64,000 nucleotides of DNA from assembly GCF_001989615.1 (NCBI RefSeq), contig NZ_CP019067.1, positions 930,001-994,000 of the forward strand, read 5' to 3'. A program made the position numbers and the translations under genes. How positions within the stretch are numbered: position 1 is the first letter of the stretch; each line of letters opens with the position of its first letter. Positions 23,059 through 52,986 of the stretch are shown here, in pieces. The DNA comes from Halorientalis sp. IM1011. GTDB taxonomy: Archaea; Halobacteriota; Halobacteria; Halobacteriales; Haloarculaceae. Below the pieces are notes generated by a model, which worked only from the letters and a program-made list of their open reading frames with translations, did no database searches and was not told where the DNA came from.

Positions 23059-23558
23059 CGTTTGTCTTCGCCCGTTCGCGCGTGCCATGTGTCGCTTTTC
23101 GCTTCGTTGTGCGGGGAGCCACGACCACTCCGCTCACTACACGGTCCCCCTCACCCGGTCAGTCTGTCAGGCTATGGGATGGGTAGGTGGTCGGTGTAAG
23201 GACCCAACCGTTGCACACAACGTGCAGTGTCGCAGCCCCCATCAGCGGCATGGCTGCTGGTCGTGGTCACGTTCTCGCTGACCGGTGGCACCGTCCATCG
23301 TGAATCGTTCGAAGGTAAGGATATCCGAGAATCGGTCGTATCTCCCAGTCGGTACTGCCCAGCGCGTCCAATTTCCCCTACCGAATGCCACAGGAACGGC
23401 GGGGGTGACTTTTGCATTGTAATTCCTGGCTCAGGCTTATGTGTGTGGATCCTCTATCTAGTAGTCCGAACGAGCAGCGTGACCAGAAATCAGTGGGCAA
23501 AGTCAGGCCGAAAAGCGTTTACCTGTTCCCAAACTGGTCGCGAACAAGAAATCACACT
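23059..23558. other. Gap after the pseudogenes
   Basis: About 500 bp with no supportable coding sequence. It presumably holds more decayed sequence from the lost DUF6884 gene and the promoter of the small gene at 23559. A T/A-rich stretch at 23505-23515 may contain its TATA element. Confidence 0.4.
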
Positions 23559-23663
23559 ATGACCCTCAGAGAAACCATCCAGTCTCTGGAAAGCGACCTG
23601 GATATGACCGACAGTACTCGAGTCGAGCAGATCGGCCGATCGGTTGCACATCTCCGCGACTAA
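23559..23663 (+). CDS. Small 34-residue hypothetical protein
   Basis: The ATG at 23559 encodes MTLRETIQSLESDLDMTDST, then RVEQIGRSVAHLRD, an amphipathic helical peptide. It could be a genuine small protein, since it ends 9 bp before the convergent Doc-like gene. No function can be assigned. Confidence 0.4.
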   Translation: MTLRETIQSLESDLDMTDSTRVEQIGRSVAHLRD

Positions 23664-23672
23664 TTTGCGCTT

Positions 23673-24539
23673 TTACTCCATCTTCTGAACCCGTTCTGCG
23701 AACTCCTGTTTCGTCACCGGTTTTCCCTCCTGTAGTTCTGGCGTCCCCGCCCGATCCAGCACCTCCTGGGCAAACTCAATACTTTGCCGATTATGGATTT
23801 GGGCGTATTCCGCGAGCGCATCCCAGTGATCCATCGTCAAATCGTAGTCGTTCAGGTGTATTCGCAGCCCATCTTTCCGTTCGACCACGGTACACCCTGC
23901 GTTCGAAAGGTGCCTGAACCGGGGAACGTTTCTGCGAACCGTCAAAAGCCGCTTTGAATCTTCGATATACTCATTGACCCACCCTTCCCAGTCGTACTCT
24001 TCTGTCGCAGTGGACGGCATATCGAATCCTCCAGAGATCGCCTCGAAATAGAGACTCAGCATTCCGAGTGCTGTTCTGTGGTTTGCATTTGGCAATGCAT
24101 GACGCAAGATCAGACCCGAGACCAATTCCCCACCCGCGATTGCCACTGACTCATCCCACGTGACTCGGTCCAGCGCTTCCGGGATCCGCGTAATCTCGAT
24201 CTCTTTGTACGCTGCAAGACGTTCGTCTTCCTGTTCGTATTTCTCCGCAGCGATAGATTCGAACAACCGCAATATCCGGGTCGTGATGATCTGATTCGCC
24301 CACTCCATGTCCGCGACTTCCTGTCGGAGTTCGTATTCAATATCCTCCGTCACGTCCGGGACTTCCCGTCCCCTGTACACCACGTATACTGTCTCATTCA
24401 ACTCACACTCCTCGATTCGCGTTATTTCATCAGCCTCGCACTGGGCTGCTCTCTTTTCTGCCTCTTCAAACTCATATGCCAGATAATCGATGGAGAGTCG
24501 GCTGTTCTCCGGGTGGTGGTACGCGACCCGTCCCGCCAT
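23673..24539 (-). CDS. Doc/Fic-like domain protein
   Basis: A 288-residue protein carrying ILRHALPNANHRTALGML at about residues 145-162. This matches the Doc/Fic active-site pattern (H-x-x-x-x-A-N-K/H-R-T-A-L), in which the His is catalytic and the Asn/Arg position nucleotide phosphates. In the Doc of phage P1 the corresponding domain phosphorylates EF-Tu. The usual Lys of ANKRTA is His here, a small change. It lacks the adjacent antitoxin seen in doc/phd pairs. The divergent neighbour is a PLD-ATPase gene 244 bp away. The ATG at 24539 is chosen because the N-terminal extension upstream is not protein-like. Confidence 0.72.
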   Translation of the reverse strand: MAGRVAYHHPENSRLSIDYLAYEFEEAEKRAAQCEADEITRIEECELNETVYVVYRGREVPDVTEDIEYELRQEVADMEWANQIITTRILRLFESIAAEKYEQEDERLAAYKEIEITRIPEALDRVTWDESVAIAGGELVSGLILRHALPNANHRTALGMLSLYFEAISGGFDMPSTATEEYDWEGWVNEYIEDSKRLLTVRRNVPRFRHLSNAGCTVVERKDGLRIHLNDYDLTMDHWDALAEYAQIHNRQSIEFAQEVLDRAGTPELQEGKPVTKQEFAERVQKME

Positions 24540-24783
24540 TGATGCTCGATTCCGTCGGGTGGTCCTAAATATTGTTGTGAAACACGCTCGATTCACGAGA
24601 CGGAGTGATCTTGTGTACCACGGCGCGTAGTGGGACCTCTCGACGGGGAGACCGAGAACTGATCGAGATTGTTGGTCACTGCTGTGTAGTGGATCTCTAT
24701 CAGTCGTATAGCGGATACGCCAGCTATGGAATCGAATGGTACATGGTAACAAGAATAATCCTGCGGTCTCTGGACCACCTACC

Positions 24784-26736
24784 ATGGAGCCACAGGAATC
24801 ATCTGCCGACATGCGATCGCTGTCACCGTTTGTCTCTCTTCGCAGCTACAGGGGTTTCGAGAAGTACCTGTCGTCAGCTAACCGGATGAAGGTCGTGAGT
24901 TACTGTACCTCTCCGCGGATGCTTCTCGAACTCTTCAACGAACATGACCTGGAAAAACTGGAGGTGATCGTTGGCGAGAAAACCGACTTTCGTGAGGAAA
25001 TCAAATCCGTCTCCGTCGCCCAGGAACTCGAACGATACAAGCGACGTGGGGACCTGTTGATCTATCTTTCACCCGACCGTGATATCCATGCGAAACTCTA
25101 TATTTTGCGATCCGACGGGGGAATCACGATCTTGACCGGCTCACCGAACTTCACCGATTCAGCGTGGACGAATCGGTATCAGGTCAACAACCTCGACGTA
25201 TTCAACTGCGCGCCAGAGTCCGAATGGCATCACCAGGCACTCGAACTCTACGATGAATACCTGGAGCTCTGTGATCCGGACCCGTTTCTGGAAGACCTGA
25301 CGGACGAACTCGATGCATCCGATGATCCACCTGAAGAGGTCATTGAGCGCTGGCTCACGGTAAGCGATGCAGAAGAGGACAACGAACTCAGGGAGTTTCA
25401 CGGTTCAATTTCTACCCAACTCGGCGAGTTCGGTACGTCGATCAATGCTGATGAGGTAATCCACGAATCGCTGCAGCAGTACTCCGATAGCACGCACTCG
25501 AAGATGCAGGATCTGTTCCAGCCCTTTGATATTACGCTCAATGATAGCCTTTTCCGGACATCGATCGGTGAATACGGGCGTGCCGTCAAGAGCAACTACG
25601 ATATTCCGAAGCTGTGGGTAACTGCTGATGGAGTGCACCTGCTTACTCCGAGTGGACGGCACCTCGAATTGACCGAGCCACCACCCAATCCACAGGCGGT
25701 CGATACGAGTCTCGCTAACATCGAAGCTTATCTTGAGACGGTCGACCAGGCGGAAACTGACGATGCAGCGGCCGCAAAAGCGCACATGTACGAGGGGTTG
25801 TTGTACTTTCTCTGGGCCCCGTTTGTCAACCAGTATGCCAAGGCGTTCGGGGCAGGGCAGGTCGGTGACGTTGAAAAGAGCGTGCCGTTTCTCTACATCC
25901 ATGGTGAACCAAATGCCGGGAAGGGAACATTCCTGGAGTTCGCGCTCCGGCTCATTTCGGACAATTCTGTCGTCAGCCCGATCGATGGTGCAACCGTCGG
26001 AAGTCGGACGCCGAACAAAGTTCGCGAACCGGTGACGGCATTTCCCGTTGCATTCGACGACGTCGAGCGACAGACGTTCGGTCGGTTGGGACGCCTCCGG
26101 AATTACTGGGACAACTGGAACGGCAAACCATACCCGGCGATCATCATTACGAGCAACGAGAACAAGCCCAACGAGTGGTTCCTCCAGCGGGCAAAGATGC
26201 TCCATTTCAAGCTGATGTTTACTGGGCGATCGACAGCTCGGATGCGAATGCGAGAAATCGTCGAAGCCGATAATCCATTCTACAAGTGGTTCACACACCA
26301 GTATCTGCGACGCGATATCGAGATGGCGGATCTGGTCGACGAGGAGACCGACCGTGATGACATTCTGGCAGTCGTCCGGGACACGGTCATGGACCTGTAC
26401 GAGTATGCCGACCGTTCGCTACCGGCGTATTTCCCTGAACAACCAGCTGAATGGGAGCACGACGTCGGTCGACAGCGCTGGCACGAAGCGATTGATAACG
26501 AGTATCTCGTGTTCCAGCGCCGTAACGACAGACTCGTTGCCCTGTTTGACGATGATATCGCCTCCTATGAAATCGACAACGCGTACCTCCGGAACCTCCC
26601 TCGGCACATCCGAGCCCGGCGCACCCACAACGAAATCTGGATTACGTCCGTCGACGCCTTCGAGCGCTGGCTGCAACGGGACGTGGACGAGGCGGGTGGG
26701 TTCCTTGACAGGCTTCGCACTACGTGGTTCGACTAA
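24784..26736 (+). CDS. PLD-like nuclease fused to an SF3-type P-loop ATPase
   Basis: About 650 residues. The N-terminal 170 residues hold one phospholipase D/HKD-type site: HAKLYILRSDGG at about residue 102, then ILTGSPNFTDSAW. Such domains can act as nucleases as dimers. A helical middle follows. The C-terminal half is a P-loop NTPase with Walker A GEPNAGKGTF at about 374-383, Walker B FPVAFDDVE at about 419-427 and an arginine-rich sensor-like stretch FKLMFTGRSTARMRMRE. It resembles superfamily 3/viral-type helicases. Starts at 24784 and 24811 are possible. It is divergent from the Doc-like gene; as a pair they may form a defence or abortive-infection module (inference). Confidence 0.75.
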   Translation: MEPQESSADMRSLSPFVSLRSYRGFEKYLSSANRMKVVSYCTSPRMLLELFNEHDLEKLEVIVGEKTDFREEIKSVSVAQELERYKRRGDLLIYLSPDRDIHAKLYILRSDGGITILTGSPNFTDSAWTNRYQVNNLDVFNCAPESEWHHQALELYDEYLELCDPDPFLEDLTDELDASDDPPEEVIERWLTVSDAEEDNELREFHGSISTQLGEFGTSINADEVIHESLQQYSDSTHSKMQDLFQPFDITLNDSLFRTSIGEYGRAVKSNYDIPKLWVTADGVHLLTPSGRHLELTEPPPNPQAVDTSLANIEAYLETVDQAETDDAAAAKAHMYEGLLYFLWAPFVNQYAKAFGAGQVGDVEKSVPFLYIHGEPNAGKGTFLEFALRLISDNSVVSPIDGATVGSRTPNKVREPVTAFPVAFDDVERQTFGRLGRLRNYWDNWNGKPYPAIIITSNENKPNEWFLQRAKMLHFKLMFTGRSTARMRMREIVEADNPFYKWFTHQYLRRDIEMADLVDEETDRDDILAVVRDTVMDLYEYADRSLPAYFPEQPAEWEHDVGRQRWHEAIDNEYLVFQRRNDRLVALFDDDIASYEIDNAYLRNLPRHIRARRTHNEIWITSVDAFERWLQRDVDEAGGFLDRLRTTWFD

Positions 26737-29235: not shown

Positions 29236-29259
29236 ACCCAACGAGGGGTGCGGTTGTGT
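29236..29259 (+). promoter_or_regulatory. 5' hairpin element, copy 1
   Basis: A stem of 6 pairs with one mismatch (29236-29242 with 29253-29259) around the loop GAGGGGTGCG, preceded by GTTTGTC and ending 19 bp before the ATG at 29278. It has the same layout as eight other copies in this window (T-run, stem, GGGTG loop, then about 20 bp to the start), with the weakest stem. Confidence 0.5.
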
Positions 29260-29277
29260 CCACACTCGGAGCTACGC

Positions 29278-30411
29278 ATGAAAGTCGAAGGAGACTATAT
29301 GTGCGACATCTGCGGCGAATCGTTCGATACGAACGTCGAGATTGCAAGCCACATGGCAGGTCACAAGCGATCCATCACACCTGACCATATCAGCGAGGAA
29401 CTCAGACGTATCGCCGAGCAGAAAGGCCGACCACCAAAGCAACCCGAAGTTGAGGAGGAGACGGATTTCACTGCTGGTGCGGTACAATCAACGTTCGGAA
29501 GTTGGAGAGAAGGACTACTGGAAGCGGGGCTTGAACCACTTGATCACTCGTACTCGAGAGAGGAGCTAATCGACGAGTTACGGCGCGTAGCCGAGAAGCT
29601 CGGTCACTCTCCGTCAACAATGGAAATGAAGAAACATGGGGAGGTATATCCAGCTACGGTAAAACGGCAATTTGGATCGTGGAATACCGGACTCGACGCT
29701 GCAAGGCTGTCGACGACGAAATCGACCAAGGTCACTCCTCAAGAAGTAATCACAGCAATTCAGGCACTTGCTGACGACCTTGGGCGGCCACCGACCGCCT
29801 ACGAAATGGATGACCTAGGAGAGCATGCAACAAAAGTCGCCCAACAGCGCTTCGGCAGTTGGAACGCTGCACTTCAGGAGGCAGGCTTTGACCCTCATAA
29901 GCGGCGAAATATACCTGAAGAGGAGTTACTGAAGGAGCTCACTCAACTCTGTGATGATTTGGGTCACGTACCCTCAACTGTTGAAATGCGAGAACATGGA
30001 GAGAACACTATCTACCCGTACATCCGGCGGTATGGATCATGGAAGCAGGCCGTGGAGGCGGCTGGGATGGAATATCGCGGCTATCCAAGCGGACCTGATC
30101 ATCCTACTTGGAAAGGTGGCTACGGGGATATTTCGTATGGGCCAAATTGGTACAAGCAGCGCAAACGTGCGCTAGAACGGGACGGATTTGAGTGCCAGAT
30201 GCCGGACTGTTCCATCGACCGTGAGACCCACCGCGAGCTCTGGGACCGTGACCTAAACGTCCATCACATTACGCCGCTTGACACATTCATCGATGCCGAC
30301 GGTGTCCTTGACTACGAACGGTCGAATCGACTTGAGAACTTGGTCACGCTCTGTCGGCGCCATCATATGCTGTGGGAGCAGTTCGCTCCGCTCCAACCCG
30401 ATATCCGCTAA
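29278..30411 (+). CDS. HNH endonuclease with homing-associated repeats and N-terminal zinc finger
   Basis: A 377-residue protein. A C2H2-type finger starts it (CDICGESFDTNVEIASHMAG). Then come four repeats of about 55 residues ending in FGSW or YGSW (for example VKRQFGSWNTGLDAA and AQQRFGSWNAALQEAG), the homing endonuclease-associated repeat that binds DNA. The last 100 residues are an HNH nuclease: CQMPDC, LNVHHITPLD, and the closing NRLENLVTLCRRHH. It would bind a long DNA site through the repeats and nick or cut it. There is no intron or intein context visible, so it is a free-standing homing or accessory endonuclease. A GGGTG-loop hairpin precedes it. Confidence 0.85.
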   Translation: MKVEGDYMCDICGESFDTNVEIASHMAGHKRSITPDHISEELRRIAEQKGRPPKQPEVEEETDFTAGAVQSTFGSWREGLLEAGLEPLDHSYSREELIDELRRVAEKLGHSPSTMEMKKHGEVYPATVKRQFGSWNTGLDAARLSTTKSTKVTPQEVITAIQALADDLGRPPTAYEMDDLGEHATKVAQQRFGSWNAALQEAGFDPHKRRNIPEEELLKELTQLCDDLGHVPSTVEMREHGENTIYPYIRRYGSWKQAVEAAGMEYRGYPSGPDHPTWKGGYGDISYGPNWYKQRKRALERDGFECQMPDCSIDRETHRELWDRDLNVHHITPLDTFIDADGVLDYERSNRLENLVTLCRRHHMLWEQFAPLQPDIR

Positions 30412-41654: not shown

Positions 41655-42563
41655 ATGGCAGACCCGATCTTGCGTTGGGCTGGCGGGAAACGCCAGATTA
41701 TCGACGACATAGTCACTAGGCTCCCACCCTCAAGAGACTATAATGACTATTACGAGCCGTTCTTTGGTGGTGGTGCTGTCTTCTTTGAACTGAAGCCGAG
41801 CAACGCGTTCATTAACGACATCAATGAGACGCTGATGGACTTCTATGAGCTGTTCAAAAATAATCTAGACTATATAATTAGAGAAAATAAGAAGCTGGAC
41901 GATGCCCTCAATCGCTATAGCACACTTGACGCAAAGAAAGAATTCTATTATACCCGTAGAAGAGAGTTCAACGAGTTGCAGAACGGATGTTGTGAGGATG
42001 AACTGCGGGAGGCAGTTCTCTTTCTCTTCTTGAATCGGACGTGTTTCAATGGTCTCTACCGCACCAACGAGAAGGGTGACTTCAATGTCCCAATGAAAAA
42101 GAAGGTTATCCTGACCGAATCAATCGAAGAAAAGCTTAAAGAAGGGCACAAGGTTTTACAAAATGCGGAGATAACATCACAAGACTTCGAATATATCGAG
42201 GAAGAAGTCGAAGAAGGGGACCTAATTTTCCTGGATCCACCATACATAAGCAATTCTGACGCACGCTACTTTAACCAGTACAGCACCGGTGGATTTGGGA
42301 GAGATCGACAAATTGATGTCCGAGATCTCGCTCTAAAACTTCATCATCGGGGTGCGTATGTGATGATTACGAACTCTGATGAAGCCGAAGATCTGTACCG
42401 CAGCGATGGCGAGTTCATGGAAAACTTCAGAATGATGGAACTCGAAGCTGCTCGGTCAATCAACAGCGACTCGTCTCAGCGCTCGCAAATTGGAGCTACT
42501 GATATTATTGTCACGAATTCGCCACAATTCTGGGAACAAAGAGAATTTGATGCTTACAGATAA
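41655..42563 (+). CDS. Dam/D12-class DNA N6-adenine methyltransferase
   Basis: A 302-residue methyltransferase with the D12 order of motifs: RWAGGKRQIIDDIV (residues 7-20), EPFFGGGAVFFEL (34-46, SAM site), and DPPY at 194-197, in LIFLDPPYISNSDARYF. It transfers a methyl group from SAM to the N6 of adenine in a specific DNA sequence; the sequence is unknown. Genes of this kind usually protect host DNA next to a restriction partner. Here it lies between the MORC-like ATPase and the DptF-like gene, all in the same direction. The start codon at 41655 is preceded by AT-rich sequence. Confidence 0.9.
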   Translation: MADPILRWAGGKRQIIDDIVTRLPPSRDYNDYYEPFFGGGAVFFELKPSNAFINDINETLMDFYELFKNNLDYIIRENKKLDDALNRYSTLDAKKEFYYTRRREFNELQNGCCEDELREAVLFLFLNRTCFNGLYRTNEKGDFNVPMKKKVILTESIEEKLKEGHKVLQNAEITSQDFEYIEEEVEEGDLIFLDPPYISNSDARYFNQYSTGGFGRDRQIDVRDLALKLHHRGAYVMITNSDEAEDLYRSDGEFMENFRMMELEAARSINSDSSQRSQIGATDIIVTNSPQFWEQREFDAYR

Positions 42564-42724
42564 TCAAAGCAAAATTCATTCTATGTAGTAATATATTGGA
42601 TACTTAGCATCCAGCACCCGTAGTCTGAACCAGAATCAAATTCGAAGCTCGGTTGCGTTGTGGGGTGCCTGCTATGGCAAAGGTTTATTTTATGCTACGC
42701 AACATATCAAGTCAACCGACGCCA

Positions 42725-44446
42725 ATGTCACTAACGAAATCAAGTGATTCTCTTTATGACTTATTGTATGCCTGTCAACGGGGCCAGCGAGTGGCAATCG
42801 TTGGCGGCCATACTGACGAAGATACCCTCCGTGAGGGGTTGTACGTGGAACAAGATCAGGATGAAAACATTGCTGATTTTTTTGATAATGAGTACGAGAA
42901 CGATGGGCGACTGCTGATACTAACCGGGAGTGCTGGTGACGGCAAGAGTGCCTTGCTAGCCCGTGGCTATGAGAAGGCTAAAGGAAACATTCCAGAAGAG
43001 CGCGTTAAGATGGACGCGACAGAGGCACGACGACGGGACGAGAATTATTCTGACAGACTCACCTCTTTTTTTGACACAATCGAATCTGACATTCAGTCCG
43101 AGTCCGGGCCAAGAAGTGCGATTGCTATCAACTACGGTCTTGCCATCGACTATTTCCAGCGGAAAGGGATGGCAGACACATTTGATGAGATCTGGGGTGC
43201 AATAGATGAATCACAGAATGAACTTTTCTACGAGTCGACCGAGCACAATATTTCCGTACTCAATTTGAGCCATCGCGAAACATACGAGACTGCCCCTGAG
43301 TCGTTGGGTGAGGGGTTAGTTTACGACCTGATTGATCGGTTTGATCCAATGAACGAAAATAGCCCGTTCACAGAGGCTTATGAACGAGAAAAGTCAGAGT
43401 GTCCTGCCGGCGATGACTGCCCACTTCAATACAACATCCGGCAACTCTCGACCACATCAGTCAAAAGGCAACTCGCACGGTTGTTTGCAGGCTGGAGTGT
43501 GGTCACAGGTTCGTATCTGAATCCACGGACCATCATTGACAATATCGCCTCGCTCCTCCTCCCAAAATCCCAGCCTCACGATCGGGATCATGAGGTCTGT
43601 CCTATCGGAGCTGCATTAGAGAATGGGACCACAACTGCTCACCCAGAGGACCTCATATGGAATGCGACATTCGATACACTGGGGACAAACAATCGGAATG
43701 AAGCCAGTAAGATTGATCCCGCAAGTCACACAACATTTGCCATTGATCAACAAGCGTTGGAGTGGGCAACTGGAGCTAACGGGACCGAAGAGGCACTACC
43801 CTCGCTTCCAGCCGTTGAGTTTGACGAGTCAGTCGAACGCGTTCGTACAGTGTTGCGAAAGCAATACCTGAACATGGGTGACGGGAAGACTATCCTTGAC
43901 AAGCCAACATTTCAAGAGTTTGCTGCCGCACTGACGTACTTCAATAACGGTAGGCCGCAAGAACATGTAAGCCGGACACAGGAATTACTCAGTACTGTTC
44001 AGAAGGCTCTAGGTGGCTGGACCGGCCGGCAGAGAGGCGATGGCCTGGTTGAGTTCATTGACGCAAAGCGGTCCGCATCATATCGATATCTCTCGGACTG
44101 GGAACAGCCCGAGTTTGATGCCGATAAGTGCGCTGAGGAGACCGAATCGCTAGCCGTTCCTGGACGTCTCAAACTAATGGCTGAGCCGTCGAGCAGCGAA
44201 GAGCCACTCATTCCGATCCCGATCTCATTCAATATCTATCAGCTGCTGACACAGGTGAGTGAAGGGTATACCCCCAATGCAACCGACCTTAATCAGTCGC
44301 ATGCTATCAGGGTGCTCCACTCACGCTTGGAAGACTTCACGAACAAACGAGAAAAGGTGGTCGTAGAGGGACGGTCAAATGAAACAAAAGTGACTATCGA
44401 GGACGACAATCTTGCGCTGCGAATATCTCGGGAGGGTAGCAAATGA
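42725..44446 (+). CDS. DptF-like P-loop ATPase
   Basis: About 573 residues. Walker A is ILTGSAGDGKSALLA (GSAGDGKS at 68-75). A cysteine pair in CPAGDDCPLQYN at about 234-240 and the C-terminal FNIYQLLTQVSEGYTPNATD match features of the DNA phosphorothioation-dependent restriction protein DptF as I know the family. DptF works with DptG and DptH. The start is chosen at ATG 42725, after a T/A-rich stretch; ATG 42674 and 42692 are alternatives. The gene overlaps the next by 4 bp (ATGA), so translation is coupled. The assignment rests on motifs and gene order, not a search. Confidence 0.65.
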   Translation: MSLTKSSDSLYDLLYACQRGQRVAIVGGHTDEDTLREGLYVEQDQDENIADFFDNEYENDGRLLILTGSAGDGKSALLARGYEKAKGNIPEERVKMDATEARRRDENYSDRLTSFFDTIESDIQSESGPRSAIAINYGLAIDYFQRKGMADTFDEIWGAIDESQNELFYESTEHNISVLNLSHRETYETAPESLGEGLVYDLIDRFDPMNENSPFTEAYEREKSECPAGDDCPLQYNIRQLSTTSVKRQLARLFAGWSVVTGSYLNPRTIIDNIASLLLPKSQPHDRDHEVCPIGAALENGTTTAHPEDLIWNATFDTLGTNNRNEASKIDPASHTTFAIDQQALEWATGANGTEEALPSLPAVEFDESVERVRTVLRKQYLNMGDGKTILDKPTFQEFAAALTYFNNGRPQEHVSRTQELLSTVQKALGGWTGRQRGDGLVEFIDAKRSASYRYLSDWEQPEFDADKCAEETESLAVPGRLKLMAEPSSSEEPLIPIPISFNIYQLLTQVSEGYTPNATDLNQSHAIRVLHSRLEDFTNKREKVVVEGRSNETKVTIEDDNLALRISREGSK

Positions 44447-45897
44447 CATATAGTGGATTTGGATTCGTTCCAGAATTCGATTCTGCACCTGGCCGAACAA
44501 ATCAGCGCGCGTACTTCCCGGTATCAATATCCGCGACAGTCCGAGAAGCAACATTCTCCGAGACACTATCCGGAATCTTAGATGCCGCTCCCAGCCACGA
44601 AATTGCTGATTTGGAGAAGTCATTCAAAGACCTGCCAGCACTGGACGGCGATGACGAGACAGCCGAAGAGTTGTGGAATGCTTTCACCTCTGGATATGGT
44701 GTCTCAGCTAAAGGATTTGGTCGAAAAAACGATGAAGCGGACTACCTTGTGCCATTCAATCACGCTGTAGCGTCAGCAATTGAGATCGACCAACGTCGCT
44801 GGTCTCGCCTCTATTGGCTACTGATGACTGATCCAGGGGATGGTGTCGTTGAGGATCTCCACTCAGAATTCGTTGAGGGTCTCTTCGATATGGATATATC
44901 AAACCTTCTAGAGGAAATTGTTATTAGCGGGATCGAGAATCTAGAGGGTGTTGAATTGGCGTCAGATGCTACTGAAATTCTCTCCAACCAGACGCCGATT
45001 GAGATTGATCCGCTCGTACCGGGGTGTGCGGAAGCATTTCGCGAGGATCTCAAGGCTTGGCTCAATGTCCGAGAATCTGAATCTGCCTCCCGGTGGATGC
45101 TTGGACTGCGCGATATCCTCAACTACCACTATATGATGTATGTCATTCAAACCGCCTACACTCTCCAAGAGGAATACGAGACGATCAAAGATGGGCCACC
45201 GTATGAATACTCATTTGACATCATCCCAGTGCCGTTTGGGTTAGCGAGTGAAACTGCATCCGAATCCAGAGAATTCGTGGATGCCTGGAAAGGTGATGGT
45301 CTATCGAGGGCCCTGTACGACTCCTGGGGGCGGCTTGCGGTACTAAATCACGTAGTGAGCGTTGCGATGGACTCCGGAAATCAGATTGACGCAAAACCAT
45401 ACACACTCTCGGAAGCACTTGAAGCCTTCCCAGATGAACTCCAACAGGACGTCATCGATCGGTTACTCGATGAATTCCCTGATGATCAACGACCTGACGT
45501 CGACTCGGATCTGGGAGACGTAGCGATCAGGTTCACACACTCAGTTCGCCGATACTACGAAAACATGGGTAAGACACCGTCATCACAAACTGCCTATTCG
45601 GCAGGCGAGAACTCGGTTCGCGATCTTGGAACAGGTGCAGAACGACAATTTATAGAGCGACGTCGGGGTGTCGGAACGATTCTCCGACTGGACAGAGGCA
45701 GTCTTCGGCTGTTTGCTCGGCTCTTTGACGCTCGAAAGCAACGGGGTCATATAGACGAGTTCTGGGAGTATATGCGAGGGCGAGGAATTAGATTTGACCG
45801 CCGGTCAAAAGAAGAGGTAATCTCACAATTAGAGGCAATGGGACTGCTGCAGAAGCAAAGCGACAGTGGGGAGGCAATGTATGTCGAGACCCTTTGA
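44443..45897 (+). CDS. DptG-like protein
   Basis: A 484-residue largely helical protein lacking a nucleotide-binding motif. Near its end it reads GIRFDRRSKEEVISQLEAMG, followed by the tail SDSGEAMYVETL. That ending closely matches the C-terminal signature of DptG (RKSxxxxxxxFE..N..E.KSDSGxAxYV), and the position between a DptF-like and a DptH-like gene fits dptFGH order. It overlaps both neighbours by 4 and 17 bp. A supporting search is needed, but the tail and synteny together are good evidence. Confidence 0.65.
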   Translation: MTYSGFGFVPEFDSAPGRTNQRAYFPVSISATVREATFSETLSGILDAAPSHEIADLEKSFKDLPALDGDDETAEELWNAFTSGYGVSAKGFGRKNDEADYLVPFNHAVASAIEIDQRRWSRLYWLLMTDPGDGVVEDLHSEFVEGLFDMDISNLLEEIVISGIENLEGVELASDATEILSNQTPIEIDPLVPGCAEAFREDLKAWLNVRESESASRWMLGLRDILNYHYMMYVIQTAYTLQEEYETIKDGPPYEYSFDIIPVPFGLASETASESREFVDAWKGDGLSRALYDSWGRLAVLNHVVSVAMDSGNQIDAKPYTLSEALEAFPDELQQDVIDRLLDEFPDDQRPDVDSDLGDVAIRFTHSVRRYYENMGKTPSSQTAYSAGENSVRDLGTGAERQFIERRRGVGTILRLDRGSLRLFARLFDARKQRGHIDEFWEYMRGRGIRFDRRSKEEVISQLEAMGLLQKQSDSGEAMYVETL

Positions 45898-48800
45898 GCA
45901 GAACGTCGCTCGATGGTTCTATGAACAGATGCCGGAACTGGATCCCCAGTCGGGAGACCGGTATGCAGGGAAGCTCCCAGACCCGAAAACGGCGGAAAAA
46001 ATCACCGAGTCTATTCTTGAAAACTCCGAGGGGATGGTTAGATTTCAGACTGTAGAGTACGAGGGTGAACAACAGGATGTTCCGGTTATTGATGTCGATG
46101 GTACGTCAGTAATCGTCGTTTCTGTGCGGAGAGAGGGCGATGCTGTGAGTCGTGAGTTTGAGGTATCCCGATCGTATGCCACAACGTTACGGAACATTAT
46201 CGCCGAGGGAGAAGATGACCTCGCCGATAATGCTCTCGTCATGATTTATGAGTCCGGTGTGGCCATTGAAACGCTTGAGACCACCCACCTTCTCTTTGCA
46301 CACAACGAACAGCTCCCCCTAACCGACTTCCAAGAACGGATACTTGGAAGCAAAGAAAAGCTGTCTGACCCCGGGCAGGCGCTTATCGAGATCGTTGAAT
46401 CGCGGCTTGAACTTCCAGATGACCCATTAGACAACCTGGATCCGCTCCGCACGTACTGTGGCATCTATGATGCCTGTATGCGTTCTGATGGGGATGCAAT
46501 GCCCAGTCTCATTCCGAAGATCGGAACATATCTGACAGAAACTGCCTTTGATGAAGAATGGTTTGACAAGACAAACAGCAAGTCTGAACTCAAAAGCCAG
46601 GCTGAACAGATTTTGGACCGTAATCAAGAGCATGCAGAGCGGATTGCGGACGCCAAGAGTGTCACAAAGGATGAGGAAACAGAACTGAAAGCCTACTACA
46701 CAGAGGACTTTATCGAAATAGTAGTCAGCAGGTCAAACTGGCGAACAATAACTCGGTCTGACGCAGCTGACGGAGAGGTCAGTACTACGGGTGGTGGTAG
46801 TTCTACGGGGGCAAGCACTGGAAAAAGTGGTCAAACCACGAGTAGCTCAGGTACGTCTGAGACTGGAACAGGTCGAGATCCGGAATTCGAGGATATAACC
46901 GTCGAACAAGACTTGGTTCGAATCTACGGAGCTGGCAGTCAGGCTGAGGGTGACCGGAATGTCATCATTGGGATGGACACTGGAACCCTCTCAGCGACGA
47001 TTGAGTATGACATCGATATCTCAGGAGAGCCAGTGAAGCTGACTGATGGAGCCGGCAATGAGCGCGATGATTGGGAGCAACAAAACAATGAGCTAAAAGT
47101 CTCATTGTCGGGACTCGATACGGATGCGCCACAGTTCTACCGCCTGGAAGTATATATCGGACACAAGACGAAGGGCGGAACACCGCAGAATCAATTCAAT
47201 TTTGCACTCATCCCTGAGTCGCTGTTCCACACGCTGCCGACTGGTGACAAGACGTTCGGTGTTGATGTTGATGAGGAGTCTCTGACAGCATTTGACGAGG
47301 AATTGATCGAGCTTACGCCGCCGGAAGCGGATGAGAGTGACAACCCAGAAACGGTTGAAATTACTGAAGAAACTCATCATAAGGCGGATCTGCATGCTTT
47401 GCTCCGGCCCAAACCACTACCAGGCGGCAGACGGGTTCGGTGTAAGCTTACACTTCCATCGGGCACACCTGTACCGCTCAATATTGACTTCATTTCTGAG
47501 GTAGATGAGCCAACACAGGAAGAAGTCCAGTTCCCACTGTCCTTCGCCGCACTGATGTCACCGACAGACTGGGCTGGGGATGATTCCCTAGAAATCGATT
47601 CTGCTGTCGTCACCAATATTGACACAGGCGAATTCCACTCGCCGACCCGCGGCCGGATTGAAATCCCTGACCCTGATCGGAAACTTCTCGCTTTAGAACA
47701 AGGAATTGTGCAGAAGGGGACGATCGCCCCTCGTGAGACAGCGCAAGTCGATGTCGGGCTCGGAGTCGTTCCTGATGATGTCGAACTCGAGAATATCGCT
47801 CCAGATCTCATCAGTGCATATACGGCATTGCTCGAGCACTTCGATCAACGTGATACAATACCATCGACAGACATCTGGGATCAGGAAACGCAGGACCATG
47901 TTGCAGATGTCTTGGAGAACTATTCGAAGGCGATCCAGGCGATAGAGGCAGGAAGGACAACCCCACAATTCAATCCATATCGTCGGCTCGGCACGATTCA
48001 GTCGACGTCCGCGAATGTCGTCTGGTTGACCCCTTTTCATCCCCTGATGTTGGCATATGGGCTGCGGGTAGCAGGATGGCGCGATGAACTGTTGGAGGCT
48101 GGAATGACTGATGGATTTAGATTTAGCCGGTTCCGGTCGCTGTTCAACCCTGTTGGATTCTCACCGTTCAGGTGGAGCCAAAGCGACGGTGGGAATATCC
48201 TTTCGGGGCACACGATGGAAAACAACCACCTCTGGGCTTCTTATGCCCCAATCGCGGGTCCGGGTTCGGACACTCCGAACTATATTGCTGACGTAATCTC
48301 CGATAAATTGGAAGCATTCGCCAGAGCGTTCCCGCTCCTATTCAAACTGCATGAGGACCGAACGCTCAACATTAATCTGGTGAATATGGGGGACCTTGGG
48401 CCGGTAATTGAGGGCCTATATGACTTCTTCAAATACGTCAATGAACACCCAGAGCTGAATCTCCCGCAAGTCAATCTACAGATCTACGGCGGTCCAAATG
48501 AGGGCCGGACGCTCGAGCGGTTCTTTGCAACTGATAGTGGGGACTCGCCACTTCGAGAGCAGTTGGGCGGCTCCTCAGACACAGATGAGATCCTGGAAAA
48601 GCTAGACCGGCGTGTGAGCTATGTTCGAGCTGATTCTAAATTCAACGAAGACACACAGCGATCCGCGCATCTCACCCTTTTCCGCGGCATTCTGGAAGAA
48701 CAGCCGGGCGCCGTTGAAACTGCGAGCTTCCCTAGAGCAACACGGCTGAATGGACTTCTACCCCGAGACCAAATCCAAGTTGAGTCTGCAGGGAGTGAAA

Positions 48801-51634
48801 TAGTCTCTCGCTCAGGGGCTGCGTTCGATCCTAAAGAGGGCGGTATTCTTGGTGAGATCGGTGCCGCTATCAATACATTAGAAGCGAGCATGCGTGACAG
48901 TGAGTTCAACTACGGTCGGACACTCAGCAAAGTGGTTACAACTGGTGGGCGATCAAATCTGCCGAACATTTGGAACCAATCCCTTTGGGTCCTTCACGTC
49001 GAGCCGAAAGTGGATCTCAGCTTCTACATCAATTCTACTTCCCAGTCGTCGGACATTTCGGATGAGGCCTTGATGATCCACTACAGTGATCAATATGACG
49101 CTGCCTCCCCCGGATTCGATATCATCACGACAACGGACAAGCGTGATCCATATATTAAGACTCTTGAACGAGAGTTAGAGGCAACTCCGGGTCTGGATGA
49201 ACTCGACCCGGAATCCGTGCTTACGCGTTTGGTTGCTATCGACGGGGAGCTAGCCTTAGATCTCCAAAGCGCAGAAAACAACACCGTCATGGAACTACTC
49301 GGTTTGGTTGGGGGACTGGCAGTCAGCGGAGAGTTGCTTGCTCGGGAGTTGCCAGAGTACGAGTGGATCCCAATCAGTTTAGACGAATTTGCTCGCCACG
49401 ATCGCAAATATCGTGGTGGAAACGAGGGCCTGCTCCAGTACTTCGGTGAGGGAGCAGCATCGGATGACCTGTGCTTCGTGGGTGTCCCGAAAGACGCTGA
49501 GTCCGGAGATCTCAATCTCTATCTGTGGATTGTCGAGACAAAAGGCGGAACATCGGGTATCTCGAAAGGAGTCGAGCAGGTCAAAGGAGCAAAAGAGAAC
49601 CTCAAAGAGCTGTTTGACCCGGACAAGGACTATGCTGACACCGAGGTTCTCCGGAGTGAATTTGGCGATATCATCCTGCAGATCGCGCGTAGACTGTATC
49701 ATTACGGGGTAATCTCCGAGACGCGGCTACAGACAATCGAACAGCATACAGACCCTCTAGTTGACGGTGAATACTCTATCAACCTGTTAGAGGACAGCCA
49801 ACGGAGAATTGGAGAAGTTATTCGAATTCAACGAGACATTGCGCTGCCCGCTCTTGAGACTCAGGATGGTGTTCGTGTTCTCAAACTACCGGCGGATGTG
49901 TTATCACTTATTAATAGCGAAAATCTTAGTGAGAATTCGATCCACCCGGATCTGAAAGCTGAGAAAGTCTCATTCGAGACGCCGGCAAGTGCACAAGAGA
50001 CAGAGACAACTGAGGCCGAGACAGCGGCTGTGGAAGAGGCAGAGACAAGTGTGGCCGAGGCTGAGAATTCTGAACAGGCAGAAACTGCTGAGCCTTCGTC
50101 AACGATCGCTGAGGGTGCAGAACCGACTCAAAATACCTCTTCAGGCTCGGAAGAGACAGAGGAAGCAACGACTGAGTCAGCAAGCTCAACTGGCTCAGAC
50201 GCCCAAACTGAGCAATCCGAAAAACAACCGGAGCGAGTAGAGGATTCCGGGACAACAAGCGGACAGGAGTCTGAGACTGACACTGCTGCAGCTGAGAAAC
50301 AGAGCGAACAGCAAGAGGAAAAAGAGTCGACTGACAGCAGCGACACTGAAGAAGCATCAGCATCTATTCAGAGTCAGAACTCCGAAGATGATGAGGGAGA
50401 CTCTGACAGTAAAGTAGATGATGATACGTCAGAAGCTTCGGACACACATGCGGCAGACGCACGTGGCACAAGAGCCTACTCGTGGACATCGAGTGACAGA
50501 CAGCAATTGATCGAAACCTTGGACCCGAGCCCTGAACAAGAGCTATCCATAGACGTAACACGGCTCACGACCGATCTAAAGGAGCAATTCGAATCGTTAG
50601 GGGTCGATATCTACGAACCGAACCCTGCCGATGTGTCAGTCGGTCCGCGAAAAATCGGCGTGAATATTCGACCGAAGTCGGGACAGAAAGTCGACAGTAT
50701 AATCAATGTTCTGAACTCGGTGAGTGTGCATATCCAAGCATCTGGTTCTGTCACTGGTGTTGCTAATCCCGCGGAAGGAGCAATCCGCTTGGAAATCCCA
50801 CATGGGGAACCGCGAGATATCCACCTTCGTGAGGGACTGGAGGCATCGGCTGAGTCGTTCAATGAACCACTTCATATTCCACTTGGAGTGACCACAGAGA
50901 ACGAACACAAGACGATCGACCTACTTGAGGAACATCATGCACTGGTTGGTGGTGCTACAGGCTCTGGTAAGTCGAATTTCCTCGCATCTGTGATTTGCAG
51001 TCTCGCCGTCAACTACTCTCCAGACCTAGTCAAAATGAGTCTACTCGATCCCAAAGGGATTGACTTTGGTCGATTTGAGCCCCTACCGCAGGTAGATACC
51101 TATCTAGACACAGGCGAACAGTGTGTTGAGTACCTGGAAGGACTACTTGAATCTGAGCTGGAGGATCGACGTGACTTGCTACAGGAAATGGGCGCTTCAT
51201 CGGTGCAAGAATATAACCAACTTGCAGAATCCCGAGACATCGATCGGATACCATATCGTGTTATCATTATTGACGAATACGCTGATCTGATTATGGCCCT
51301 GTCGGATACTCAGCAGGAGTTCGAGGATGCAGTCGGGCGACTTGCACAGATCGGACGGGCACTGGGGTACTCTATTTTGCTCGCGACCCAACGGCCGGAT
51401 GCAAATATTGTGTCCGGCAATATCAAGACGAATTTCAACTGTCGAATTAGCTTTGAATTGCCTTCCAACACCGACTCTCGAGTGATCCTTGATCAACCGG
51501 GCGCAGAAGATCTGGAGGGGGCAGGAGACATGATTGCTTTGACATCAGCTGGTGATGAACACCATCTACAGTCATATTTACTTCGTCCCGAGGATGCTCT
51601 TACTATCAGGGCACACATCACCAGTGACGACTAG
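45881..51634 (+). CDS. DptH-like FtsK/HerA-type DNA translocase with nuclease-like domain
   Basis: A 1917-residue protein. A large N-terminal region without known motifs is followed by a PD-(D/E)XK-like site at about 1195-1221 (SDDLCFV and LYLWIVETKGGTSG, Glu1219 and Lys1221). Then comes a low-complexity linker rich in Glu, Thr, Ser and Ala (about residues 1367-1530). Last is an FtsK-type motor with Walker A GGATGSGKSN (1690-1699), Walker B VIIIDEYADL (1794-1803) and QIGRALGYSILLATQRPDAN. This order is as in DptH, the helicase-nuclease of Dnd-dependent restriction. It starts inside dptG-like, at ATG 45881. The long acidic linker would suit a halophilic protein. Confidence 0.72.
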   Translation: MSRPFEQNVARWFYEQMPELDPQSGDRYAGKLPDPKTAEKITESILENSEGMVRFQTVEYEGEQQDVPVIDVDGTSVIVVSVRREGDAVSREFEVSRSYATTLRNIIAEGEDDLADNALVMIYESGVAIETLETTHLLFAHNEQLPLTDFQERILGSKEKLSDPGQALIEIVESRLELPDDPLDNLDPLRTYCGIYDACMRSDGDAMPSLIPKIGTYLTETAFDEEWFDKTNSKSELKSQAEQILDRNQEHAERIADAKSVTKDEETELKAYYTEDFIEIVVSRSNWRTITRSDAADGEVSTTGGGSSTGASTGKSGQTTSSSGTSETGTGRDPEFEDITVEQDLVRIYGAGSQAEGDRNVIIGMDTGTLSATIEYDIDISGEPVKLTDGAGNERDDWEQQNNELKVSLSGLDTDAPQFYRLEVYIGHKTKGGTPQNQFNFALIPESLFHTLPTGDKTFGVDVDEESLTAFDEELIELTPPEADESDNPETVEITEETHHKADLHALLRPKPLPGGRRVRCKLTLPSGTPVPLNIDFISEVDEPTQEEVQFPLSFAALMSPTDWAGDDSLEIDSAVVTNIDTGEFHSPTRGRIEIPDPDRKLLALEQGIVQKGTIAPRETAQVDVGLGVVPDDVELENIAPDLISAYTALLEHFDQRDTIPSTDIWDQETQDHVADVLENYSKAIQAIEAGRTTPQFNPYRRLGTIQSTSANVVWLTPFHPLMLAYGLRVAGWRDELLEAGMTDGFRFSRFRSLFNPVGFSPFRWSQSDGGNILSGHTMENNHLWASYAPIAGPGSDTPNYIADVISDKLEAFARAFPLLFKLHEDRTLNINLVNMGDLGPVIEGLYDFFKYVNEHPELNLPQVNLQIYGGPNEGRTLERFFATDSGDSPLREQLGGSSDTDEILEKLDRRVSYVRADSKFNEDTQRSAHLTLFRGILEEQPGAVETASFPRATRLNGLLPRDQIQVESAGSEIVSRSGAAFDPKEGGILGEIGAAINTLEASMRDSEFNYGRTLSKVVTTGGRSNLPNIWNQSLWVLHVEPKVDLSFYINSTSQSSDISDEALMIHYSDQYDAASPGFDIITTTDKRDPYIKTLERELEATPGLDELDPESVLTRLVAIDGELALDLQSAENNTVMELLGLVGGLAVSGELLARELPEYEWIPISLDEFARHDRKYRGGNEGLLQYFGEGAASDDLCFVGVPKDAESGDLNLYLWIVETKGGTSGISKGVEQVKGAKENLKELFDPDKDYADTEVLRSEFGDIILQIARRLYHYGVISETRLQTIEQHTDPLVDGEYSINLLEDSQRRIGEVIRIQRDIALPALETQDGVRVLKLPADVLSLINSENLSENSIHPDLKAEKVSFETPASAQETETTEAETAAVEEAETSVAEAENSEQAETAEPSSTIAEGAEPTQNTSSGSEETEEATTESASSTGSDAQTEQSEKQPERVEDSGTTSGQESETDTAAAEKQSEQQEEKESTDSSDTEEASASIQSQNSEDDEGDSDSKVDDDTSEASDTHAADARGTRAYSWTSSDRQQLIETLDPSPEQELSIDVTRLTTDLKEQFESLGVDIYEPNPADVSVGPRKIGVNIRPKSGQKVDSIINVLNSVSVHIQASGSVTGVANPAEGAIRLEIPHGEPRDIHLREGLEASAESFNEPLHIPLGVTTENEHKTIDLLEEHHALVGGATGSGKSNFLASVICSLAVNYSPDLVKMSLLDPKGIDFGRFEPLPQVDTYLDTGEQCVEYLEGLLESELEDRRDLLQEMGASSVQEYNQLAESRDIDRIPYRVIIIDEYADLIMALSDTQQEFEDAVGRLAQIGRALGYSILLATQRPDANIVSGNIKTNFNCRISFELPSNTDSRVILDQPGAEDLEGAGDMIALTSAGDEHHLQSYLLRPEDALTIRAHITSDD

Positions 51635-52701: not shown

Positions 52702-52986
52702 ATGAATTCACCAGTACCCAATTTTTCTATGTCAGAAGGTCAGGGAGAAGACCAGAGACTTGGAGGAGATGTATCAGATGATGAGCTAGATATAGACCTT
52801 GCAGCTCAAGAAAATGGGGACGTAGAAGATCAGATTGCTAGCGCATTCATATTCAAGGTAATGCAATCTGATGTTGATGTGGACATGGCCGATGTCATGA
52901 ATGGGCTTCTCCATAAGGATGATTTCGGTGGAGAAGATCTCATTGTTGAATGCATTGAGGAGGAAATGTTGGACGATGAAGATTAA
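52702..52986 (+). CDS. Small acidic protein linked to the SMC-like gene
   Basis: A 94-residue, very acidic protein (about a third Asp/Glu) with a helical core (QIASAFIFKVMQSDVDVDMA). No family is known. It overlaps the following SMC-like gene by 11 bp (52976-52986), so the two are translationally coupled. It is likely its partner, for example a DNA mimic or regulator, by inference. A TATA-like CAATATAG lies about 30 bp before the start; an internal ATG at 52729 is an alternative. Confidence 0.6.
   Translation: MNSPVPNFSMSEGQGEDQRLGGDVSDDELDIDLAAQENGDVEDQIASAFIFKVMQSDVDVDMADVMNGLLHKDDFGGEDLIVECIEEEMLDDED

Follow-up and report, generated by a model that had tools for sequence, protein, structure and literature searches.

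The locus

We analysed a stretch of 64,000 nt (hereafter the window) from the haloarchaeon Halorientalis sp. IM1011, situated in contig 1 (NZ_CP019067.1, positions 930,001 to 994,000) of a genome of 3.78 Mb, and focused on a gene for a Doc-like protein and the genes on either side of it. The Doc-like gene (23673..24539, minus strand) encodes 288 residues and is a candidate toxin gene, recognised from its open reading frame (ORF), from the motif HALPNANHRTAL at residues 147-158 (read from 24539) and from an AlphaFold model with a predicted Doc fold. Tail to tail with it, with 9 nt between the two stop codons, lies a plus-strand gene of 34 codons (MTLRETIQSLESDLDMTDSTRVEQIGRSVAHLRD, 23559..23663), whose product, here called the microprotein, is a candidate antitoxin. 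Read by eye, a TATA-like element TTTACC (23518..23523, plus strand) stands 36-41 nt 5' of the microprotein start, and a weak one, TATTTA (24566..24571, minus strand), 27-32 nt 5' of the Doc-like start codon. On the other side, a plus-strand gene (24784..26736; 650 aa from the best ATG at 24784) encodes a phospholipase D (PLD)/ATPase protein assigned by its sequence to the AgaP family, a separate neighbour outside the Doc cassette.

The original prediction had described the Doc-like protein and the PLD/ATPase, read them together as a defence set and reported no usual Phd-type antitoxin. The 288-residue protein and its motif are present as described, and both genes are real and more than chance ORFs, since relatives occur in many haloarchaeal genomes and the motif residues are invariant among them. 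A Phd-type antitoxin is indeed absent from the seven window proteins scanned, but the convergent 34-codon gene had been overlooked.

Distribution, motif and fold of the Doc-like protein

Relatives of the Doc-like protein were found in 152 of 391 haloarchaeal genomes and also on 60 plasmid records. A phylum-wide sample gave a match in 31 of 392 genomes, 30 of them from the window's own order, and the single match outside that order (G682) is weak and partial (E 2.9e-6). Viral contigs that were searched contained relatives of neither the Doc-like protein nor the PLD/ATPase. The motif is laid out as H147-A-L-P-N151-A-N153-H154-R155, and the conservation expected of it is borne out: H147, N151, N153, H154 and R155 are invariant across 33 aligned members (general form H-x-(L/M)-x-N-x-N-H-R), and a distant clade keeps these residues as HPMPNTNHRT, HPMPNANHRS or HPLLNANHRT. 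The catalytic loop of Fic/Doc proteins has the consensus HxFx(D/N)(A/G)N(K/G)R, of which the Doc-like loop keeps H, N, N and R, with L in place of F (M or L in the distant clade) and H in place of K/G.

Sequence-family searches do not by themselves lead to this superfamily. The Doc-like protein has no family match in a Pfam scan and does not reach the cut-offs for Doc/Fic (PF02661, TIGR01550); its score against TIGR01550 (E 0.053, 13.7 bits) is under the cut-off of 38.65, and that against phrog_577, annotated as 'Doc-like toxin', is likewise sub-threshold (E 0.17). The Fic family was matched by two of the 33 members (best E 0.0021), and a Pfam search of the source genome for Fic recovered four Fic proteins at other places and none at the Doc-like locus; PF02661 misses the Doc-like protein because its sequence is too diverged.

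The structural model is more informative (mean predicted local distance difference test, pLDDT, 90.1; predicted template modelling score, pTM, 0.87). Its best structural matches are 3dd7, 3kh2 and 3k33, all of P1 Doc (Z 9.1-9.7), which superpose at 2.4-2.7 Å over 113-115 of their 122-124 residues (top match: Z 9.7, 2.4 Å, 113/122 residues), followed by FICD and Fic-1 (Z 6.3-6.5) and by other folds at Z 3.5 or less. No match with an E of 0.001 or better came from Foldseek by itself; a second aligner recovered the fold. The P1 Doc chains align only to about residues 84-266; the Doc fold proper comprises residues 84-265, and an extra beta-rich domain (about residues 1-75) is predicted at the N-terminus. 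As modelled, then, the Doc-like protein has the Fic/Doc fold.

A convergent microprotein gene accompanies Doc

A microprotein gene convergent with Doc is present in 30/30 best relatives, at 81/81 Doc loci of a scan of named genomes (window included) and, with a length of 34-36 codons and always on the convergent strand, at 103/103 distinct full-length Doc loci. These samples overlap one another; full-length refers to more than 250 profile positions, and the 103 loci represent all sources pooled and de-duplicated. The gap between the two stop codons is mostly 0-10 nt, and at some loci the genes overlap. A profile built from the 34-residue form alone matched in 134/141 full-length Doc loci before de-duplication, and the remaining seven belong to the distant Doc clade, where a convergent 36-codon form was found by eye. 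This form was entered by hand into a second profile, whose matches at those seven loci are therefore by construction. We had regarded the clade as a microprotein-free exception on the basis of the 34-residue profile, a view that was dropped given the convergent 36-residue form.

Over 48 loci, distances between Docs closely track those between microproteins (r 0.95; highest of 2000 permutations, 0.22), which indicates that the two travel together. The linkage of the two genes is obligate, as judged from the 103/103 loci together with the selection on the small partner as a protein described below. The pair is also found on plasmid pHS3 of Halobacterium salinarum R1, as OE_RS13105 and an unannotated ORF at 250221-250325; 9/9 annotated plasmid records with this ORF list nothing at its place, in a gene table known to be incomplete. 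Among open-licence PMC papers, as far as listings and the beginnings of abstracts go, we found no published account of the pair.

Coding selection was assessed on 112 distinct 34-codon sequences (73 proteins, 2202 pairs). The ratio of replacement to silent differences (pN/pS) is 0.30 in frame, whereas four other frames have 1.36-1.99; the value of 0.41 in one antisense frame would follow from shared wobble positions. Silent change is frequent (pS 0.56) and replacement rare. Among 187 hits the start codon is ATG in 177 and GTG in four, and the length is exactly 34 or 36 codons. The microprotein gene is thus under protein-coding selection.

A TATA-like box occurs 18-50 nt 5' of the microprotein gene in 85/112 upstream regions vs 8.9% of shuffled sequences, and many relatives possess a TTTATAC-like box about 28-36 nt before the start. 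Upstream of Doc the corresponding count is 7/32 vs 11.7% shuffled, which as a group is near background. The microprotein itself is modelled as one helix (residues 3-33, pLDDT 81.6), and S19, G26, A30, L32 and D34 are conserved in its alignments. Searches of Pfam, PHROGs and the PDB with the microprotein returned matches at chance level only, and a ribbon-helix-helix identity, prompted by a single match at E 0.15, was dropped. A likeness to the Phd tail was also rejected, as it was suggestive by eye in the window copy only and absent in the family: the window copy was equalled by 7/1000 shuffles, and among 16 copies only three more reach 32-58/1000.

Cassette boundaries and patterns of loss

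The limits of the conserved unit were examined in 655 locus pairs that are 75-95% identical over Doc. Ahead of the Doc start, DNA similarity extends for a median of 53 nt, and ahead of the microprotein start for 43 nt, so that its ends fall just outside both promoter regions. Locus L194 looks as though Doc had been excised from it: 27 nt from its solo microprotein gene stands a PadR-like gene, of a type found ahead of Doc in some plasmids.

Loss of the two genes is asymmetric. The 30 best microprotein loci were ranked on microprotein score alone, and 29 were usable, one being cut by a contig end. Twenty carry a full-length Doc and nine lack an intact one, with Doc fragments in six, nothing in two and an AbiEii-like gene in one. 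A further 24 microprotein loci, chosen for having no listed Doc, contain Doc fragments in seven cases and none in 17. A full-length microprotein match is retained beside five Docs that are broken by an internal stop or a frameshift, and at one locus both genes are broken. Conversely, a full-length Doc without the microprotein was found at 0/103 loci (0/103 vs 9/29, Fisher P 4e-7). When corrected for target length, the small gene being eightfold shorter, 4.6 losses would be expected and the probability of observing none is about 0.01.

A different partner is seen in a lineage with AbiEii, a nucleotidyltransferase, which we take to be AbiEii from its sequence and its neighbour, the name having been given by no search. 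Here the microprotein is convergent with AbiEii at a 5 nt gap in three loci. Among 30 AbiEii loci the microprotein is intact in two, decayed in five (one at only E 0.14) and absent from 23; where AbiEii stands in place of Doc it is thus degenerate in five of the seven loci that keep traces of it. The microprotein thus persists alongside Doc and tends to degenerate once Doc has been lost, as would be expected of an antitoxin.

Loci L155, L210 and L211, L217-L224 and L276 show AbiEii-like genes convergent with the Doc-type microprotein and, in Halolamina, an AbiEi gene located directly upstream of Doc; toxin genes appear to have been exchanged between AbiE and Doc loci. Intact solo microproteins also stand beside the same helicase/nuclease-like gene in five genomes (L161, L170, L198, L204, L212), and at four of these loci a shared protein of 387-425 residues faces the microprotein at the usual position of Doc.

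The neighbouring PLD/ATPase gene

The original prediction joined an HKD-type PLD site to an ATPase resembling helicase superfamily 3 (SF3) in the second protein, and this description holds, all quoted motifs (HAKLYILRSDGG, GSPNFTDSAW, GEPNAGKGTF, FDDVE) being present and the domains supported. The N-terminus is a single-HKD PLD nuclease domain (HxK 102-104, GSxN 119-122), the C-terminus a P-loop ATPase with SF3-like motifs (GEPNAGKG 374-381, FPVAFDDVE, TSN 456-458). Relatives occur in 100/391 haloarchaeal genomes.

AgaP serves as the PLD nuclease in APAP, an Argonaute system of haloarchaea, with H105 and GSxN 157-160 in the published numbering (PMC11442185). The Natrinema pellirubrum member of our alignment has H105, GSDD at 119 and GSPN at 157; since this numbering equals the published one, we identify it with the AgaP family. 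H102, K104, S120 and N122 of the window protein are invariant in 12 aligned members, the N. pellirubrum one included, so that the PLD residues of AgaP are retained. By its sequence, the window PLD/ATPase is thus assigned to the haloarchaeal AgaP family. In the 20 AgaP neighbourhoods (L248-L267), clustering with Pfam-identified members assigns Argonaute (Piwi) to 11, Mre11 to seven, Rad50 to five, and NurA and HerA to four. The nearest relative (G011, 51% identical) stands in a Mre11-Rad50-NurA-HerA run without Argonaute, and relatives occur in such runs as well; the word Mre11 is absent from the main text of the APAP paper (PMC11442185). An operon with long-A Argonaute is lacking here, with zero Piwi matches across the whole source genome. 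The window gene is in this sense an orphan, although the published AgaP of N. pellirubrum is toxic without its Argonaute (PMC11442185).

The Doc-like gene and the PLD/ATPase gene do not co-occur at the other loci compared, an outcome that had been named beforehand as one that would refute the original prediction. Flanks of 1.5-6 kb were covered at 109 Doc loci, some of which are the same place twice, and flanks of 8 kb at the 20 AgaP loci: AgaP accompanies 0/109 Doc loci, Doc accompanies 0/20 AgaP loci, and none of the latter has the microprotein. The closest AgaP relatives (G011, G241, G082, G140) come from genomes without any Doc relative. In Natronomonas gomsonensis (L065), whose Doc is the closest relative (64% identical), the AgaP gene is missing, and DNA homologous to the window at 27.7-29.2 kb lies about 0.9 kb from the Doc start vs 3.2 kb in the window. 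Given that co-occurrence is lacking elsewhere and that AgaP is absent between homologous DNA in N. gomsonensis, the two genes most likely became neighbours by chance, in a region where defence genes are plentiful. The defence reading is thus fair for the PLD/ATPase alone, as a homologue of AgaP, and unsupported for a joint set with the Doc-like gene.

Interpretation

We consider it probable, without great confidence, that the Doc-like gene and the convergent microprotein gene form one mobile toxin-antitoxin cassette, the microprotein neutralising a Doc-fold transferase. The Doc-fold protein would transfer a phosphate or nucleotide from an NTP to a host protein and thereby stop growth, a likely chemistry because the Doc fold and loop are retained with histidine replacing lysine. 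P1 Doc phosphorylates EF-Tu, and the archaeal elongation factor aEF1A is perhaps the target here. The microprotein would be expressed from a separate promoter on the other strand, bind directly to the Doc-fold protein in the form of a single long helix and block the loop. Its role is likened to that of Phd's C-terminal tail or of the helix that inhibits other Fic proteins, but it has no DNA-binding domain. If the cassette were lost, the enzyme, being long-lived, would outlast its short-lived inhibitor, and addiction would result.

Several points weigh against this interpretation. Toxicity, direct binding, chemistry, target and addiction are inferred, and classical protein antitoxins are co-transcribed with their toxins and autoregulating, whereas the microprotein is neither and has no DNA-binding domain. 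The family does not resemble the Phd tail: its profile scored -1.1 bits against it, and 1952 of 2715 scored shuffles did as well. In the loop, H154 stands where P1 Doc has K73, and N151 occupies the D70 position, so that the reaction may be a different one or no longer occur. The count of TATA-like boxes ignores the shared ancestry of the loci; the loss asymmetry, once corrected for length, is only moderately significant, and it too is drawn from related, not independent, loci. Finally, intact solo microproteins in several contexts could mean that the microprotein has a second job.

The most serious alternative is that a non-toxic Doc-fold enzyme uses the microprotein as substrate, cofactor or activator, the pair being a regulatory or defence module. 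Obligate pairing would suit any two-part machine, and the microprotein could do some work by itself where it stands solo. However, Doc decays while the microprotein survives, and the microprotein decays once AbiEii replaces Doc, as one would expect of an enzyme that is not tolerated by itself; moreover, the scattered distribution, the occurrence on 60 plasmid records and the cassette boundaries suit a selfish module, and we regard this alternative as unlikely. Less probable still is an RNA antitoxin, in which a convergent transcript antisense to the 3' end of the Doc-like mRNA would act in a type I-like manner and the ORF would be incidental. Because the stops are mostly 0-10 nt apart or overlapping, the transcripts would overlap at their 3' ends, and convergent antisense RNAs are a usual type I layout. 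An antisense RNA would not, however, preserve amino acids, and it is disfavoured by the pN/pS of 0.30 with a pS of 0.56, the exact length of 34 or 36 codons and the ATG or GTG start in 181/187 hits.

Two further alternatives we judge very improbable. The polarity might be reversed, with the 34-residue peptide as toxin and the Doc-fold enzyme inactivating it by modification; in type VII pairs a nucleotide-transferring enzyme serves as antitoxin, and very short toxins exist. A lethal peptide could not persist alone, though, and an intact solo microprotein is present in 9/29 usable loci while Doc lacks it in none of 103. Just as improbable is the divergent abortive-infection set of Doc-like protein and PLD/ATPase. 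The two genes are adjacent and divergent in the window, and something other than Argonaute may restrain AgaP here, as the AgaP of N. pellirubrum is toxic without its Argonaute (PMC11442185) and the genome has no Piwi match. Against this stand the empty counts in both directions, 0/109 Doc flanks with AgaP and 0/20 AgaP loci with Doc or microprotein, and the missing AgaP of N. gomsonensis despite the homologous DNA beyond.

If the toxin-antitoxin interpretation is correct, about two in five sampled haloarchaeal genomes possess an unrecognised system whose second gene is unannotated, and a protein antitoxin can be reduced to one helix encoded tail to tail with its toxin. More tentatively, the pairs may constitute a widespread haloarchaeal class, with the Doc-fold toxin restrained by a free-standing helical microprotein of 34-36 residues that has its own promoter and lacks DNA-binding part, operon or autoregulation; a weak toxin promoter and a strong antitoxin promoter would converge, and read-through of either transcript could silence the other gene. 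The detection of toxin-antitoxin systems from co-directional neighbours overlooks convergent pairs of this kind. The cassette could serve as an addiction and counter-selection module for haloarchaeal genetics, and the target of Doc in archaea is directly testable in H. salinarum R1, which carries the pair on pHS3.

Other genes noted in the window

Further along the window, at 41655-51634, DndF-, DndG- and DndH-like genes come after a gene for a D12-class adenine methyltransferase (PF02086), apparently a Dnd-type restriction part coupled to an adenine methylase. Downstream of this set, at 52901-55462 and with about 47-48% GC, lies a gene for an SMC/RecF-like ATPase with matches to LmuB and mad3. 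At 29248-30411 a 387-residue HNH nuclease is encoded, with four HNH_repeat units associated with homing endonucleases and a C2H2-like N-terminal finger.

Comparison with known systems

The window pair resembles P1 Phd-Doc in that the Doc fold is the best structural match and a small protein partner is present. The loop of P1 Doc, HIFNDANKRTAL in the phage record, compares with HALPNANHRTAL here, HxFxDANKR corresponding to HxLPNANHR with the replacements F to L, D to N and K to H. By contrast, P1 Doc has 126 residues vs 288 with an N-terminal beta domain in the Doc-like protein. The partner differs from Phd in being 34-36 residues long, convergent and provided with its own promoter, and it has neither a DNA-binding domain nor detectable similarity to Phd. 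An upstream antitoxin of the Phd/YefM type in one operon is lacking among the seven window proteins scanned, the partner being convergent. Indeed, unlike type II toxin-antitoxins, the pair is not co-transcribed from one operon, and the strands are convergent at every locus.

Class I Fic pairs, such as VbhT-VbhA and FicT-FicA, share the Fic fold superfamily and the inhibition by a small helical protein that we propose here, but the gene order of the Doc pair is convergent. The inhibitory motif of class I antitoxins, (S/T)xxxE(G/N), is not conserved in the microprotein alignments, where S19 is kept and the E four residues on is not. AbiE (AbiEi-AbiEii, type IV) shares the same convergent microprotein at three loci; it differs in that AbiEii has its own partner, AbiEi, and that the microprotein has decayed in most AbiEii loci retaining traces of it. 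As for the neighbouring gene, the PLD/ATPase shows 33% identity across about 700 columns with the N. pellirubrum family member that has the published AgaP numbering. Its setting differs from that of the APAP system, as the source genome has no Argonaute and its nearest relative belongs to a Mre11-Rad50-NurA-HerA run. Within the protein, GSxN begins 17 residues after the H of HxK vs about 50 in AgaP.

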